DNA of 36,767 nt from a bacterium (lineage in GTDB: Bacteria > Patescibacteriota > Minisyncoccia > Phycocordibacterales > UBA2100). A model generated the notes under the pieces. It ran no database searches and was not told where the DNA came from. It worked only from the letters and a program-made list of their open reading frames with translations. The stretch covers positions 1 through 36,767 of the forward strand of contig JAJXVV010000008.1 in assembly GCA_021781955.1 (NCBI GenBank). Direction: 5' to 3'. The position numbers were made by a program, and so were the translations under genes. Below are positions 20,225-35,486 of this stretch, in pieces (positions within the stretch are counted from its first letter, which is position 1; each line of letters starts with the position of its first letter).

Positions 20225-21679
20225 CTACTGGCCTGCTTTCGGGGTCGTCATGATGACCCTGATGTCGGCCGGATTAGAGGGGAAGGTGTTCTTCCAGAAC
20301 GGCTCGACCTTGGCATACGCCTCCTCTATGCCGGGGAATCCGGCGATGACCGCTTGGAACGCGCCCTGGTTTTTGCCTGCGAGCGCGTTTTGGAGCGCCG
20401 ACGCATCGACGGTCCACAGCAATTCGCCTTGGCCGGAGAGCGAGAATTGAACGGGATCGGTGCCGAGAACGGGCTGCTGGCCGCTCAGCGCCGAAGAGAA
20501 ACCGCTCCCGGGCACAAGGGTTACGTCTTCGTTCTGGACATCGGCAGATACTGCGGACCCGACTGATTGGCCGAGTGCCACCGCCGAGAACACCGGGGCG
20601 ACCGCGTGTACCGTTTCGTCGATGCGGATCGTGCCTCCAGGCATTTGGGTCGTGGTTGGCGAAGCAGCGTACGTAAGCTGCACGAGACCGGCCAGAACGG
20701 CACTGCTGCTCCCCGCCTGCGTCGAGAGCGCCGCATACGCCTTGTTCGCGAGATCGGTCTTCAACTGGTCTACGGCTGCCGAGAGAGTCGCGGGATCGAC
20801 GCCGGCCGTAACGCCGCCGCCGGTGGCGCCGCCGCTCATTGCAGCGGCCGATTTCGCGTAAATCGTTTTATACATAGCTGCATTACCCGACAGTCCGGGG
20901 ACCGTGAACGTCGTCGGGCCGACGTTGTATTGATCGCCGGTTTGATCCGCCATGATGGTCACCTTCACGCTGCCCGGGGTCGAGCCTTTCCTGCCCGGAA
21001 TGACTATCTCGAACGGCGTACGGAATACGAGACCGTCCGGTGTCGCGAAGCGCGTATTCTTGATGAGCTTGACGCTCGATGCGGAGTACCCGTTATACAC
21101 AGTGACGCTACCGCTCGCCTTCGCGGGCTGCGTATTCACCGGGGTCGAAGATGCGGCGATCTGTGCCGAATCTTGCAGGTCGATCGTGGCGACCGTATAG
21201 GCCAGCGTTCCGGTAGCGGCCGATTGCGCCGGATAGGCGGTGTACACGCTGCCGGAGGAGAAGATGATCGCGTGTAATCGCGGCGAAATGGTGACCGTGG
21301 TCGGCCGCAGCGCGACGAGAAGCAGTCCGACGACTACGACGACTCCCACCCCGGCGAGCGTCCAGAGCCACCACTTGCCTCTCTGTTTGCTCGGCAGTTC
21401 GCGCAATCCGGACGGCGGCAAGTTTTCGCGAACATTGCCCGTGGTGCGACCCGGCCGTGATCGGGGCGCGATGATCGTTCGAATACCGCGTGACTCTTCT
21501 TGCGAACGGTGGATCGGAATGTTCTGTTCAACGTCGTCCGAGTAATCATCTGGCGCGGCCATCGGGCGAGGGGCGGGCGGCGGCGAGACTGGCGCTACGG
21601 GCTTTTGAGGCGCCGGGCGCTGCATGCCGGCGCTCTTCTGCGCCGGGGTAATGTCTTGGAAATAGTCCTTCGCCGTCAT
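20225..21679 (-). CDS. Bitopic membrane protein with baseplate-J-like extracytoplasmic domain
   Basis: Pro-rich cytoplasmic N-terminus, TM WWLWTLAGVGVVVVVGLLLVAL, then VYNGYSASSVKLIKNTRFATPDGLVFRTPFEIVIPGRKGSTPGSVKVTIMADQTGDQYNVGPTTFTVPGLSG pattern. Confidence 0.7.
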   Translation of the reverse strand: MTAKDYFQDITPAQKSAGMQRPAPQKPVAPVSPPPAPRPMAAPDDYSDDVEQNIPIHRSQEESRGIRTIIAPRSRPGRTTGNVRENLPPSGLRELPSKQRGKWWLWTLAGVGVVVVVGLLLVALRPTTVTISPRLHAIIFSSGSVYTAYPAQSAATGTLAYTVATIDLQDSAQIAASSTPVNTQPAKASGSVTVYNGYSASSVKLIKNTRFATPDGLVFRTPFEIVIPGRKGSTPGSVKVTIMADQTGDQYNVGPTTFTVPGLSGNAAMYKTIYAKSAAAMSGGATGGGVTAGVDPATLSAAVDQLKTDLANKAYAALSTQAGSSSAVLAGLVQLTYAASPTTTQMPGGTIRIDETVHAVAPVFSAVALGQSVGSAVSADVQNEDVTLVPGSGFSSALSGQQPVLGTDPVQFSLSGQGELLWTVDASALQNALAGKNQGAFQAVIAGFPGIEEAYAKVEPFWKNTFPSNPADIRVIMTTPKAGQ

Positions 21680-21701
21680 CGATCCTAGTATACCAAACAT
21701 C

Positions 21702-22865
21702 TCACGCCCTGCTGAGTTCTCTGTTGACAAGCGCGATGGAGAACGCGAGCCCGGTATCAAGCGTGATATTCTTCCCCGCCAGAACGTGATCCGATAGATC
21801 CGCAGGCGAGACCGTTTCGACGACGAACGGCTGGGTCGTACGGGTGAACTGTCCGAAATCGATGCGAGCGAAAAATGCGCCCAGCCATTCCGTCATATCA
21901 TCCTGGGTCGTGAGAAAGAGTGCGTTGGGGAGCTTGCGGCGCGAGGCGCATTCCGCCATGCCCTCGCCGAACGCTCGGACGAGTTCGGGCTCGATCTTCG
22001 CCATCGCGGCCTGTATCGCCTGGCACGCGGCCGTCGCGCACTGCCCCGTCGAGATCATCCGGACGAGGTTCAATGTTTCCTCAGGAATGCCCTGCGGAGC
22101 GACACGCCGAATGATCGTGTGCACGCCTTCGGGAATAACCTGCTGATGCGTAAGCGCGCCATCGCGTACCACCGACAACGTCGTCGCCTCGCCGAGCACC
22201 TCGATGGCGAGATGGTCTTCATTCGGACCCGGACGCGAATCGAGCAACGACAGTATCGAGAGCGACGACGAACGGTAGACCGGCAGGAGATGCGGGAACG
22301 ATTTTTGCAGGCTCGCGCGTACGGCCATTTCCAGCGCCGGGTCGCACACGCTGAAAAGCGTCGTTACCGTGACCGCGTGCGCGCGCTGATTCTCCGGCTT
22401 AGTCGTCGAATATCCGTTGAGCTTCACGTTGACGATGCTTGCCTCGAGCAAGTTGGCGATGTTGAGCGCGCGATTTTCATCGAGCGCGCGCTTGGCGAGC
22501 GAGCTGAGCATCGAGTCGGTGATGGCGGTCTCTTCGCGAAAATCGGCTTGCGCGCGAGCGGTCGTCGAACGTACCCAGGGAGCTCGGATGACGCAGTACA
22601 GCGCCTCGACCGCCCGCACCTTCTGATCGGCCGATCGATAAGCGGCGAGCGCTTTCTCGGAAGCCTCTTCCAAGGCTGCGCCAACGCGGGCAACAGTCGC
22701 CTCACGGTCGCGCACTTCAATCGGCAACACGACGCGGGTCGCGCTCAGCACCTGTGCGGCGCGCCGCGCTGACACCAGCACGATTGCGAGCGCCGCGCTT
22801 CCGCTCCCGACATCGGCGATGGCGACGATCTGTCCCCGTCCAATCTTCGGACGCTTACCCTGCAT
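21702..22865 (-). CDS. Actin-like ATPase-fold protein (PilM/FtsA/SHS2-like)
   Basis: N-terminal IVAIADVGSGSAALAIV, mid-protein SILSLLDSRPGPNEDHLAIEVLGEATTLSVVRDGALTHQQVIPEGVHTI resembles the SHS2/ASKHA duplicated phosphate-loop layout; adjacent to the baseplate-J-like gene. Confidence 0.6.
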   Translation of the reverse strand: MQGKRPKIGRGQIVAIADVGSGSAALAIVLVSARRAAQVLSATRVVLPIEVRDREATVARVGAALEEASEKALAAYRSADQKVRAVEALYCVIRAPWVRSTTARAQADFREETAITDSMLSSLAKRALDENRALNIANLLEASIVNVKLNGYSTTKPENQRAHAVTVTTLFSVCDPALEMAVRASLQKSFPHLLPVYRSSSLSILSLLDSRPGPNEDHLAIEVLGEATTLSVVRDGALTHQQVIPEGVHTIIRRVAPQGIPEETLNLVRMISTGQCATAACQAIQAAMAKIEPELVRAFGEGMAECASRRKLPNALFLTTQDDMTEWLGAFFARIDFGQFTRTTQPFVVETVSPADLSDHVLAGKNITLDTGLAFSIALVNRELSRA

Positions 22866-22886
22866 GCGTAGAAGTATACCGCGGAA

Positions 22887-22906
22887 AATAACGCGTGATC
22901 GTTATT
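22887..22906 (-). terminator. Weak terminator-like hairpin after alaS
   Basis: AATAACG-cgtgat-CGTTATT; minus strand continues TTTTCC. Confidence 0.35.
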
Positions 22907-30595: not shown

Positions 30596-31456
30596 CTAGG
30601 CGCCGCACAACCGCTGCGCCTCATCGAGCACATGCGGGATGCGATCCGGTCTTACGCCGTACTCGCGGAGCACGTGCGGAGCCGTGACCGATTTGCAGAG
30701 CACTACCTTTTGGTCGAGGAAGCGATGCTTCTCGCCGTCGCTCAAGGTCGTCAGGCAGGTCAGCGGATGCACCTTCGCCTGTTCGATCATGTGGAAGAGG
30801 CCGCGCTGATGCGGGTAGTCCCAGCTTATGATCGTGAGGCCCGAGCATTGTGCATACCGGATTGCATTTCTCGTGAACTCGGTGTTCGTCACGAGCCAGC
30901 CCTCATCGACGCGCTGCGACTCGAGCGGCGCTCGGCGGAGATCGTCGTAACGCGCCTTCACGTAGAGCGCGTCCTTCACGTCGGTCTTACCCGCGGCGTC
31001 GTTGTGGAATTTCGCCTCGATGCCGACCCGCTTGCCGCGGCGCTCCGCAAGCACGTCCACTTCGTGCGACACGCAGCGGCCGTTCATGGCGACGCCCGTG
31101 CGCGTCGACCAGCCATGTGCGCGCAACACTTCGGCAAGGAACTGCTCGAACGGGAATCCTGATGGTCCGAGGGCGAAGACGGCGCGCTTCACCGAGTAGC
31201 GCGCCGCGACCGGCGGCTGTTCGTGTTTCTTCAAGAGCTCGAACGCCCGGCGATAAATCTCCTCCGTCGTAATGCCGGGACGCAGTTCGCGCATCACGCG
31301 CGCGGTGATGGCCGCCCGCGTTACCGATGTGGCTCCCGCGAGTTCGAGCGAATGCTCGAGCTTGCCCGCGTCGAACGCTTCTTCCTCCCCATCGGCTTTG
31401 CGCACGTACACGTGCCGGAGCGGCGAGACGTTGCGATGAGCTGCGATAGGCGGCAT
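30596..31456 (-). CDS. ATP-cone domain fused to a restriction-endonuclease-like (PD-(D/E)XK) domain
   Basis: ATP-cone VYVRKADGEEEAFDAGKLEHSLELAGA...ITTEEIYRRAFELLKKHEQPPVAARYSVKRAVFALGPSGFPFE, then SHEVDVLAERRGKRVGIEAKFHNDAAGKTDVKDALYVKARYDDL (VD...EAK). Confidence 0.83.
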   Translation of the reverse strand: MPPIAAHRNVSPLRHVYVRKADGEEEAFDAGKLEHSLELAGATSVTRAAITARVMRELRPGITTEEIYRRAFELLKKHEQPPVAARYSVKRAVFALGPSGFPFEQFLAEVLRAHGWSTRTGVAMNGRCVSHEVDVLAERRGKRVGIEAKFHNDAAGKTDVKDALYVKARYDDLRRAPLESQRVDEGWLVTNTEFTRNAIRYAQCSGLTIISWDYPHQRGLFHMIEQAKVHPLTCLTTLSDGEKHRFLDQKVVLCKSVTAPHVLREYGVRPDRIPHVLDEAQRLCGA

Positions 31457-31461
31457 ACGGG

Positions 31462-31869
31462 TTATTTGGTCGGCGGGAGCGGTATGACCGCGATGGGCAG
31501 ATCCTCGCCGTTGTAGGTCGCGACGAACGTGATGCCGACTGCTGCAGCGAAGACGATCGCGTGGAAAGAGCGGGGCGTTGAGACGGAAGGGCACGGCACC
31601 GCCGGATCGGCCCACGTGGTGAATGCGAGGCGGAAGGCCGTCTGAGACAGCTGCTGCGTCGTGACGAAAAGCTGCTCGCACGGACTGTCGACCATGACCA
31701 TGCCGTCGAGCTGGTGAGCGCCGACCGACCACGTATCGCGTATGACGATCGGCTGGTACGCGCCCGCAGATTGTGCGCTCACGATGCCCGCGCCGATAAG
31801 GTACACGACATACCCGATGATGATCGCGGAGATCAGGAACGTGAAAAATCGTAATACGGCCGCACCCAT
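31462..31869 (-). CDS. Hypothetical single-TM secreted/membrane protein
   Basis: N-terminal TM FFTFLISAIIIGYVVYLIGAGIVSA followed by a soluble region; close-coupled between mnmA and the ATP-cone gene. Confidence 0.65.
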   Translation of the reverse strand: MGAAVLRFFTFLISAIIIGYVVYLIGAGIVSAQSAGAYQPIVIRDTWSVGAHQLDGMVMVDSPCEQLFVTTQQLSQTAFRLAFTTWADPAVPCPSVSTPRSFHAIVFAAAVGITFVATYNGEDLPIAVIPLPPTK

Positions 31870-31874
31870 CCGAT

Positions 31875-32990
31875 TTATTGTACCGTGGACATTGGAACAA
31901 GCTTCAAGTCTTGGACCTTCACCTGTGAACTGCGCGTCAGGCTTACGATGCCGCCGCCGAGACATACGTCGCCCTGCGGGGTCGGGCGATAGACGACCAC
32001 GGATTGTCCGGGCGACGCGATGTGCGGCTTCGCGAACGTGACGAGCCATTGCTCTCCCCTGCGCGCGAGGCGTGTGCGGACTGGTTCCTCGTGATAGCGC
32101 GCCTGAACGAGATAGTCCGTCTCGGACTCCGGACCGTGGTGCGTCCACGAAGCGTGCTCCAGCACGACCGAGCCGCGCGCGGCATCGTCGCGTTTCTTCG
32201 AGACGCGGACCGTGTTACTCGGAATATCGATACCGACCACGAAGTACGGCCCTCCGCCCTTGCGGACGGTGAAACCGTGGCGCTGGCCGAGGGTATAGAG
32301 CGGCGCGCCTTCGTGTTCGCCGATGACGCGTCCGCTCTTCTCGACGACGCGGCCGGGCGTGAGCGGTAAATAGCGCGCCAGGAAATCGCGCATCGTCACC
32401 TCCCCGATGAAGCACAGCCCCTGGCTGTCGGGCTTCTGCGCTACCGGCAACTGCAAGCGTTGCGCTTCCTTGCGCACGAGCGCTTTGGGCAGTTCGCCGA
32501 TCGGGAATATCGCGAAGCGCAGGTCTTGTTGCGTCAGCGTGTGCAAGAAATATGACTGATCCTTGGCTCCATCGGTCGCGCGCATGAGCTCGACGTGGCT
32601 CATCTCGCTCTTGATGCGCGCATAATGCCCAGTGGCGACCGCGCTGGCCCCCTGTTTCCGCGCCCACGCGGCGAACGCCCCGAACTTGATCGCTCGATTG
32701 CACAGCACGTCGGGATTCGGCGTCACGCCGCGCGCATAGTCGGCGATCATCGCGTCGACGACCTCTTTTTTATACTGCTCGGAGAGATCTATCTCGCGGA
32801 ACGGTATCTCGAGCGCAGCGCATACGCGCATCGCATCGAGCCGGTCCTCGCGCCACGTGCACTCGATGAACTCCGGCTGCCAGATCTTGATGAAGACGCC
32901 AGTCACCTGACACCCCTGCGCCTTGAGCATCGCCGCAGCAACGGCGCTATCCACGCCGCCCGAGAGACCCACATAAATCGAATGATTCAT
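31875..32990 (-). CDS. mnmA: tRNA-specific 2-thiouridylase MnmA
   Basis: VGLSGGVDSAVAAAML PP-loop, TPNPDVLCNRAIKFGAF, ATGHYARI, SQGLCFIGEV. Confidence 0.96.
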   Translation of the reverse strand: MNHSIYVGLSGGVDSAVAAAMLKAQGCQVTGVFIKIWQPEFIECTWREDRLDAMRVCAALEIPFREIDLSEQYKKEVVDAMIADYARGVTPNPDVLCNRAIKFGAFAAWARKQGASAVATGHYARIKSEMSHVELMRATDGAKDQSYFLHTLTQQDLRFAIFPIGELPKALVRKEAQRLQLPVAQKPDSQGLCFIGEVTMRDFLARYLPLTPGRVVEKSGRVIGEHEGAPLYTLGQRHGFTVRKGGGPYFVVGIDIPSNTVRVSKKRDDAARGSVVLEHASWTHHGPESETDYLVQARYHEEPVRTRLARRGEQWLVTFAKPHIASPGQSVVVYRPTPQGDVCLGGGIVSLTRSSQVKVQDLKLVPMSTVQ

Positions 32991-33008: not shown

Positions 33009-34064
33009 TCAGAAGTATTTCGCCTCGTTGGCGAGTTGGCAGGCGTAGGTTTTGCAATAGTGCGTGACGCCTTGGTGGTCGGCTAAAAAGAAGAGGTAGT
33101 CGTTCTGGATCGGGTCGGCAGCGGCTTCGAGCGAATCGAGCGAGGGCGAGCCGATCGGCGTCGGCGGCAAGCCCTTGTTGAGGTAGGTGTTATACGGTGA
33201 TGGCGTCGTGAGATCCTTCATCGTGAGCTGGAACGTTCCTTTGCCGAGCGTGTACGCGAAGGTCGCGTCGACCTGGAGCGGCATGCCGAGCCGCAGCCGA
33301 TGCCAGAGCACGCCGGCGATCATGCGGCGGTCGGTCGTATTGAACGCTTCGCGCTCGAGTATCGAGGCCATGACGACGATATCCGCGAGCGAATGCGTCG
33401 AGCTTGCGATCTGCGGTTCGATGACCGCGATCTTATCGTCGAAATTCTGCCGCATTGCGTCTATCACCATGTTCTCGTTCGCGTTGGGCAAGAAATTGTA
33501 CGTGTCAGGGAAAAGGTATCCTTCCTGCGGGCCCGCCTTGGCCATGAAGTTGCTTACATTAAAGCGCTGGAGCGACCGGCCGAAGATGACGGCCATCTGC
33601 TTGACGGTCGCGCCTTCCGGCACGCGTATCGTTATCGGCTCGAGCCCGAAGCGGCCGACCGCGAGCGCGCGCGCCACCTCGAACGCGTTCAACGGCTCGG
33701 TAAAGAGGTAGTCGCCCGCGTGGACGCTCTTCTGCGCGCCCAAAAGCGTCACGAAGAGCCGCAGCATGAGCGGCGAGCGCACGACCTGCTCTTGCTGCAG
33801 CGTGTCGGCTATCTGCCTAAGCGACTCCCCCGAATCGACCGAGACGAGCGAATCGATAGGAAAAGCGCTCGGCGGCTCGATCATGTTGACGTACACGTAG
33901 CCGAAGAGCGCGCCAAGCACCACGATGATGATGAGCGTGCGACGGTTCGCGTGCGTCTCCCATTCAGCTCGCCAAGAGTCGATGAATCGGTGCTGCCAAT
34001 CGAAAAAGCGCTCTAGGTATTTTTCGACCGCGTTCGGCGTCAGTTTATCGTCCGTCATGAGCAA
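33009..34064 (-). CDS. mltG: Endolytic transglycosylase MltG (YceG-like)
   Basis: Single TM, VPEGATVKQMAVIF, EGYLFPDTYNF, ASILEREA...AGVLWHRLRLGMPLQVDATFAYTLG, YNTYLNKGLPPTPIGSPSLDSLEAA. TTG at 34064 or ATG at 34058. Confidence 0.94.
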   Translation of the reverse strand: MLMTDDKLTPNAVEKYLERFFDWQHRFIDSWRAEWETHANRRTLIIIVVLGALFGYVYVNMIEPPSAFPIDSLVSVDSGESLRQIADTLQQEQVVRSPLMLRLFVTLLGAQKSVHAGDYLFTEPLNAFEVARALAVGRFGLEPITIRVPEGATVKQMAVIFGRSLQRFNVSNFMAKAGPQEGYLFPDTYNFLPNANENMVIDAMRQNFDDKIAVIEPQIASSTHSLADIVVMASILEREAFNTTDRRMIAGVLWHRLRLGMPLQVDATFAYTLGKGTFQLTMKDLTTPSPYNTYLNKGLPPTPIGSPSLDSLEAAADPIQNDYLFFLADHQGVTHYCKTYACQLANEAKYF

Positions 34065-34067
34065 GGA

Positions 34068-35486
34068 TCATTTGGGCAGATTCGGCGGCGGCTCAGACTT
34101 CTTTGCCGGGATACGATCGAGCCCGGGGGAGACGATCGCAGAGGACGGCGGGTGCCAGAGCGTCGCGAGCGTTTCGGTCGACATCATGTTATGCGGGAAT
34201 ATCCACGGCGAGTAGAAGTGGCCTCGGCGTCGGTACGCGTCGAAGAAGCGCCGCTGCATGATGCGCCAACGGATGTCGTGATAATCCTGCCATGGCCAGT
34301 CGAACATGTTGCCCCAGCGGCGCGGGCGCAGCTGGTTGGAGTATTGGGGGTTGCCCATGGGCCGCCAGATCCAGCGGAGCGCCGTGTATCCCGCGCCGGA
34401 GAATTTGTCGGTATCCGAAATGTAGACGCCGCGCATCCCGACGTTGAACGGGTGTTTCGCCATGTGCCGGTCCATCGCTTCGACGAGATCGATATGCCGA
34501 GCTTGTGCGACACGAACGCTCCGGCGCCACCCTTCTCCCTCTTTGTCCTGCGGGCCGGCCGCTTCTTTACGCACGTTGTCGATCTCGCGTTTGAGTGTGT
34601 TGATATACCTGCTTTGGATCGCCCAGAACGGCGCGCCAGGTTTGTGCTCGACGTCCTTGCACATCGTGATGATGATCTGTATCCACATTTGCTCGTCGGG
34701 GCGTAAATTGCTCATGCGTTCGATCACTTGCGCGAGCGGATCGATGCGATACTCCTCTTTCGGATCCTCGTCGAGCTCAAAATCTATGTACGTCTTTATC
34801 GGGTATGCGTCGTTGCGCGGCTCAAAGCGCCAGTCAGTCGGGAAGCATTCGTGTTTCTCGGGATCGAAGCGGAACTTCGTCGCATAATCCTCGACCTCGT
34901 AGATCTCTACTTCAGGGTAATACGCGTAGAGCGCGGATTCTATATTGGGCCGCCACCCGCGCCACGTCCAAATATAAAAGTGCACCGAACCGCCGAACGA
35001 CGCGATCTCGAGCGAGAAGAACGGCGTCACCTGGCCTTGCCAGATGCGGTTAAGGAACGTGGTGGTGCCGGAATCGATCCAAAGCTTCGAGAGCGCGAGC
35101 TCCATAGCGCGCGGCGAGCGGACGAGCTCGCGGGGAAATCGTATCTCGAGCAAGCAGACGTCGCGCGTCGAGAGGTACCGGCCCTGTGCGTACCAGATCC
35201 ACGATTTCCATGCGGCAAAAAGCATGACGACGGGCGCCCAGATCGGGATCGTGCCGAGGAGCCAGCCGAACGCGAAGGTCGGTAAATTGGGTATCTCGAT
35301 CCACAGCACCCCCATCATGCCCCAAAAGAGGATGCTCAGCTGCAGCGCGCGGGAAACGCCGAACAGATTGCCGATGGCCCCATCGATGACATGGTGCAGG
35401 TCGAATTCGAGGAATTCGCCGATCAAGCCGCGAATAATATCGGAGGTTACGATACCCTCTTGCTCATGCTCGCCGATGAACGCCAT
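34068..35486 (-). CDS. Uncharacterised CPR-type membrane protein, possibly related to the N-terminal region of conjugative coupling-type proteins
   Basis: TM region LSILFWGMMGVLWIEIPNLPTFAFGWLLGTIPIWAPVVMLFAA followed by LEIRFPRELVRSPRAMELALSKLWI...; no Walker A seen. Confidence 0.6.
   Translation of the reverse strand: MAFIGEHEQEGIVTSDIIRGLIGEFLEFDLHHVIDGAIGNLFGVSRALQLSILFWGMMGVLWIEIPNLPTFAFGWLLGTIPIWAPVVMLFAAWKSWIWYAQGRYLSTRDVCLLEIRFPRELVRSPRAMELALSKLWIDSGTTTFLNRIWQGQVTPFFSLEIASFGGSVHFYIWTWRGWRPNIESALYAYYPEVEIYEVEDYATKFRFDPEKHECFPTDWRFEPRNDAYPIKTYIDFELDEDPKEEYRIDPLAQVIERMSNLRPDEQMWIQIIITMCKDVEHKPGAPFWAIQSRYINTLKREIDNVRKEAAGPQDKEGEGWRRSVRVAQARHIDLVEAMDRHMAKHPFNVGMRGVYISDTDKFSGAGYTALRWIWRPMGNPQYSNQLRPRRWGNMFDWPWQDYHDIRWRIMQRRFFDAYRRRGHFYSPWIFPHNMMSTETLATLWHPPSSAIVSPGLDRIPAKKSEPPPNLPK

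Follow-up and report, generated by a model that had tools for sequence, protein, structure and literature searches.

The question raised by this locus is what a cytoplasmic actin-like protein and a single-pass membrane protein, encoded by two consecutive genes, do together in a bacterium that has pilM and ftsA-ftsZ elsewhere in its genome. Patescibacteria have very small genomes and mostly live on other cells, and to our knowledge the building of their envelopes and their division are poorly known. The two genes, referred to here as ACT and J, lie in a stretch of 36,767 nucleotides (the window). The reading favored here, to which a probability of about one half is assigned, is that they encode an actin-receptor module of the cell envelope, comparable to FtsA-FtsN and PilM-PilN and probably engaged in cell-wall assembly.

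The locus and the two proteins

ACT and J are both on the minus strand, flanked by alaS (end at 22902) on one side and infA/rpmJ/rpsM on the other. The features of the locus are:

21702-22865, minus strand: ACT gene, 387 aa; FtsA/PilM-like (ASKHA, SHS2-type) cytoplasmic protein, assigned by AlphaFold2 (AF2), Foldseek, a profile match to FtsA and a motif table
20225-21679, minus strand: J gene, 484 aa from the ATG at 21679; bitopic membrane protein, assigned by AF2 and the starts of its relatives
22873-22878, minus strand: TATACT, a -10-like box of leaderless type, 7 nt 5' of the ACT ATG
21687-21692, minus strand: TATACT box, 7 nt 5' of the J ATG
21650-21673, minus strand: N-terminal cytoplasmic motif of J, AKDYFQDI (residues 3-10; all 73 aligned relatives have D9); putative docking peptide for ACT
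21473-21490, minus strand: second cytoplasmic motif of J, RGIRTI (RSIRNI in the family), residues 64-69
21311-21373, minus strand: transmembrane helix of J, residues 103-123, from AF2/DSSP and hydrophobic sequence
20879-21121, minus strand: barrel domain of J, approximately residues 187-267, common to GlxA and phage baseplate-J proteins

The open frame of J begins with a TTG (21760); since relatives begin at MxAKDYFQDI, the ATG at 21679 is taken as the start. The first-pass annotation had given each gene its own leaderless-type promoter, and this was borne out: a -10-like box stands at leaderless distance from 39 of 41 ACT genes and 20 of 44 J genes of the window's order, versus 1.3% of random positions. 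Nearly all of the order-level loci L124-L173 have a TATACT some 5-9 nt 5' of the ACT ATG, which suggests that transcripts of this order are leaderless.

The actin-like, SHS2-type fold that had been proposed for ACT is well supported. The AF2 model (pLDDT 94.7, pTM 0.92) finds FtsA as its best Foldseek match in the PDB (E 1e-17), followed by PilM (E 7e-16) and then other ASKHA proteins. The match to FtsA covers nearly the full length, with a TM score of about 0.62-0.67, and includes the IC (SHS2) subdomain. As a single sequence, the window's ACT has no match in Pfam or NCBIfam, and it is through an alignment profile that ACT reaches FtsA (E 5e-7).

The motifs for ATP, on which the first-pass annotation did not remark, differ between the window's order and the rest of the phylum. 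Phylum-wide, ACT keeps the motifs for phosphate-1 (DIGT), phosphate-2 (DIGGGT; L209 has a degenerate form) and adenosine (GGG), and the majority of members end in a basic/hydrophobic helix-like tail. In the window's protein, phosphate-1 is partly kept (IADVGSGS), while the phosphate-2 glycines and the adenosine GG are lost. The same decay runs through the order: the adenosine GG is lost in 67 of 68 ACT relatives, and the phosphate-2 glycines and C-terminal tail are largely gone.

J likewise has the bitopic topology first ascribed to it. Its AF2 model (pLDDT 84.8) consists of a disordered tail (residues 1-100), predicted to be cytoplasmic, one transmembrane helix and a folded ectodomain, mostly at pLDDT >90. 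Phylum-wide J proteins possess an extra N-terminal domain of ~90 residues, which is absent from the order's J; the latter carries AKDYFQDI and RSIRNI instead. In L203-L222 this domain (residues ~1-90) is conserved and soluble, with the pattern IYLExDEEITSVI...VPKxAxLLQSVVNLKLLK...VTxDxVG, and it has no match in Pfam or the PDB. Pfam scans of the window's J and its relatives revealed no SPOR domain.

The ectodomain had been described as resembling Baseplate_J, with a structure for host attachment as a possible use. The likeness holds for one barrel of ~105 residues, the sole shared fold, in which 104-106 residues align at 2.5-3.7 A (E ~1e-5 to 1e-6); the rest of the protein differs. Structure matches of the barrel are GlxA of Streptomyces (3.2e-6) and the baseplate proteins of phages A-1(L), Mu and phi812; Mu gp47, for instance, superimposes at an rmsd of 2.5 A over 104 columns. 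By sequence, GlxA is the closer relative: profiles match it at E 0.03 when built from order members and at 1.6e-8 when built from phylum-wide members. The GlxA barrel family (PF21110) is matched at E<=0.01 by 59 of 74 J relatives (best E 6.4e-8), although the window's J scores 17 bits against a cut-off of 27. Matches to Baseplate_J (PF04865) occur in 28 of 74 relatives and are mostly weak. The resemblance to GlxA is also partial, since GlxA is a secreted copper oxidase and J lacks the oxidase part.

If the barrel were a trace of phage or contractile-system ancestry, the pair could belong to an external structure used in host attachment, and the matches to phage baseplate-J proteins would be expected. 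Yet the barrel alone is shared, GlxA matches it as well or better, and J, which crosses the membrane once, has been inherited along with housekeeping genes; unlike gp47-type proteins it is membrane-anchored, and no tail genes accompany it. Neither a phage sheath gene nor a match to the PF04865 model, in the window's J or elsewhere, is present in the genome. With neighbors such as alaS, ruvX, mltG, slt, mreBCD, pbp2 and murJ around the pair in different lineages, a contractile origin was rejected, and the proposed host-attachment structure is highly improbable.

Pairing across the phylum

The two genes travel together. Single-sequence searches of 60 relatives recovered J in 58 and ACT in 54, each in single copy apart from fragments, and ACT lies directly upstream of J on the same strand at 71 of 79 order-level loci. 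In a phylum-wide sample, ACT and J are adjacent in 71 of the 74 genomes that have both among the matches listed, the other three being split across contigs. Finally, J follows ACT at 59 of 61 loci sampled mostly at one per family. Both misses are technical: one locus is cut off where its contig ends, and in the other the J gene, which stands right behind ACT, was masked by the ORF filter. Conserved co-occurrence, which the first-pass annotation had named as a test of its proposal, is thus clearly present.

Prevalence is harder to count. Hits of the ACT profile in 287 of 288 genomes were rejected as a measure, as FtsA, PilM and MreB cross-match at E 1e-9 to 1e-20. Hits at the strength of true ACT (E<1e-30) occur in roughly 55-60% of the 288 genomes, as counted by eye, with diverged members of the order falling below this line. 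The orthology of the order's ACT rests on the alaS-ACT-J gene order, its branches being long and their attachment point not fixed by the tree.

In at least 13 loci, the usual alaS/ruvX/mltG surroundings are gone and ACT-J is intact, so the pairing is more than the survival of an old operon, and what is conserved is the pair itself. ACT-J is an ancient module of two genes that much of the Patescibacteria phylum possesses, and its existence as a module with the topology given above is close to certain. No description of the pair was found in the open-access papers searched. Many poorly annotated membrane families enriched in CPR have been reported by Meheust et al. 2019 (PMC6744442), and these may include the pair.

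Losses of ACT are also seen. An apparent double loss of ACT and J in one order-level genome (G024) was rejected, as alaS is missing too and the gap is one of assembly; in another (G057), the loss at the ACT-J locus is real. Elsewhere in the window's class, J lies between alaS and ribosomal genes with no ACT upstream in five lineages (L224, L226, L229, L230 and L231), while L244 keeps a canonical pair near murJ and L223 and L228 carry diverged ACTs. The persistence of J in several sister lineages that lost ACT indicates that J is able to work without it.

These lineages raise the possibility that the order's ACT is itself a decaying remnant, with J working alone and the pairing left over from an ancestral operon. 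The loss of ATP motifs in almost all order members and the long branches in the tree are in keeping with such decay. On the other hand, ACT is still found in nine-tenths of the relatives searched (the 54/60 above), residues such as Y152, E141, N150 and G151 are conserved, the gene keeps its own promoter box (39/41), the protein models as an intact fold, and the apparent absence in G024 is a missing stretch of assembly. A remnant is considered unlikely, and an actin-receptor module that has changed in this order is preferred. A single-copy paired module that much of the phylum conserves gives the study of envelope biology a definite target. It also provides a natural series, from canonical ATPase through pseudo-actin to loss, for tracing co-evolution with the receptor.

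Relation to FtsA, PilM and MreB systems

ACT is an additional actin-like protein, since the genome has two pilM genes and ftsA-ftsZ of its own. The two pilM-pilN/O-like loci and ftsA-ftsZ (contig C5) are all separate from ACT. A PilM_2 profile does not match the window's ACT, and its three matches elsewhere in the genome are the two pilM-like loci and ftsA. The second pilM-like locus (L062, contig C9) has pilN/O-like neighbors with a RuvX-like gene close by, much as ruvX adjoins ACT-J in other lineages. In the tree, all eight sampled FtsA proteins adjoin FtsZ and fall on one branch, and canonical ACT forms a branch apart from FtsA, MreB and PilM. A canonical relative matches the FtsA model TIGR01174 at E 7.5e-33 and 114 bits, below the cut-off of 175.85.

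One close parallel is FtsA-FtsN. The IA-IC cleft is the binding site for FtsN on FtsA and for PilN on PilM, and in FtsN the tail contains [R/K]DY together with basic stretches (PMC7613929). ACT has an IC/SHS2-type subdomain, and bitopic J displays a comparable tail, with [R/K]DY near its N-terminus and a basic motif further on (MTAKDYFQDI...RGIRTI) ahead of its one transmembrane helix, although at ~100 aa this tail is longer than that of FtsN. The likeness may be convergent, and by analogy is a lead for docking. The systems differ in that no ftsZ lies beside ACT, the J ectodomain comprises the GlxA/baseplate-J barrel plus an alpha/beta part, and the order's ACT is without ATP motifs.

The PilM-PilN-like layout noted at first sight, with an actin-like protein next to a bitopic partner and a fold matching PilM, was upheld. 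It differs from true PilM-PilN in lacking pilN/pilO beside ACT (whose neighbors are alaS, J and infA/ribosomal genes), and in a J ectodomain unlike that of PilN. Should the parallel extend to function, ACT-J would be a third assembly platform, involved in building or anchoring a type IV pilus or a secretion machine of related type. Two type IV pilus systems are used by Saccharibacteria in episymbiosis (PMC12206443), and in five sampled genomes, from two families, the gene immediately after that for a PilB-type T2SSE ATPase encodes a short J paralogue (L232, L233, L235, L238 and L240; three of the five Pfam-checked). Against this, two pilM-pilN/O-like loci already exist in the genome, no pilus gene was seen beside paired ACT-J at 61 loci with PilM as the sole pilus marker, and the short J has no ACT with it and is found between dnaE and thrS in other lineages. 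A pilus platform is regarded as improbable, though less so than the other alternatives.

The short J proteins form a second family. Its members are ~380-410 aa long and have neither the N-terminal domain nor ACT, and thrS is often located downstream of the PilB-type ATPase loci. In L236, L237, L239, L241 and L242, a short J-like gene is found between dnaE and thrS, and some of these loci have an additional intervening reading frame.

MreB is the remaining comparison. ACT is actin-like, and mreBCD-pbp2 lies downstream of the pair in some lineages, but ACT is a separate family, and some lineages have the pair and no MreC while others have the reverse. ACT is found without MreC in families f48, f51 and f63, and MreC without ACT in f49 and f55. 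As the distributions are independent in both directions, a role as an elongasome component was rejected.

Gene neighborhood and proposed module

Within the 61 loci, the neighbors of the pair are alaS (41), mltG (35), ruvX (34), slt (15), mreB (12), mreC (11), pbp2 (10) and rpoA (6). Some lineages have the arrangement slt-mreBCD-pbp2 downstream, and murJ is near one pair. This company favors an envelope role but is suggestive only. The alaS-ruvX-mltG linkage is old in other bacteria, so the cell-wall genes may be inherited bystanders, and the adjoining alaS and ribosomal genes of the window's own pair count against the envelope-assembly reading. The chances of a role in envelope or peptidoglycan assembly are put at roughly even.

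For the actin-receptor module, the following mechanism is proposed. ACT, an actin homologue related to FtsA but distinct from FtsA, PilM and MreB, would sit under the membrane and hold or position J through the cytoplasmic N-terminus of the latter, as in FtsA-FtsN and PilM-PilN; such direct docking is likely. J would then relay signal or position through its single transmembrane helix to the barrel and alpha/beta part outside the membrane, where the ectodomain would most likely organize or regulate peptidoglycan assembly. Since most of the phylum has an ACT with intact ATP motifs, regulation of the module by nucleotide is probable there. In the window's order, ACT would have become a pseudo-actin adaptor and J has lost its N-terminal domain, with docking probably by way of the AKDYFQDI/RSIRNI tail; we infer that docking passed from a domain to a short peptide while the ATP site of ACT was being lost.

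Extended to the phylum, this suggests, more tentatively, that Patescibacteria inherited from their ancestors one more actin system of the envelope, set apart from FtsA-FtsZ, MreB and PilM. In it, an ATPase that forms filaments would drive a membrane receptor with a barrel ectodomain; in one order, the ATPase would have evolved into a pseudo-actin adaptor that works without nucleotide, and the tail of the receptor would have been rewired. This is considered somewhat less probable than not.

Two other features of the window are of note. An MltG/YceG gene (33009-34064, minus strand) lies ~10 kb from the pair, beside a gene for a 472-aa membrane protein without a Pfam match (34068-35486, minus strand). 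Between these and the pair, positions 30596-31900 (minus strand) encode an ATP-cone domain that is fused, unusually, to a restriction endonuclease domain of the Mrr type.
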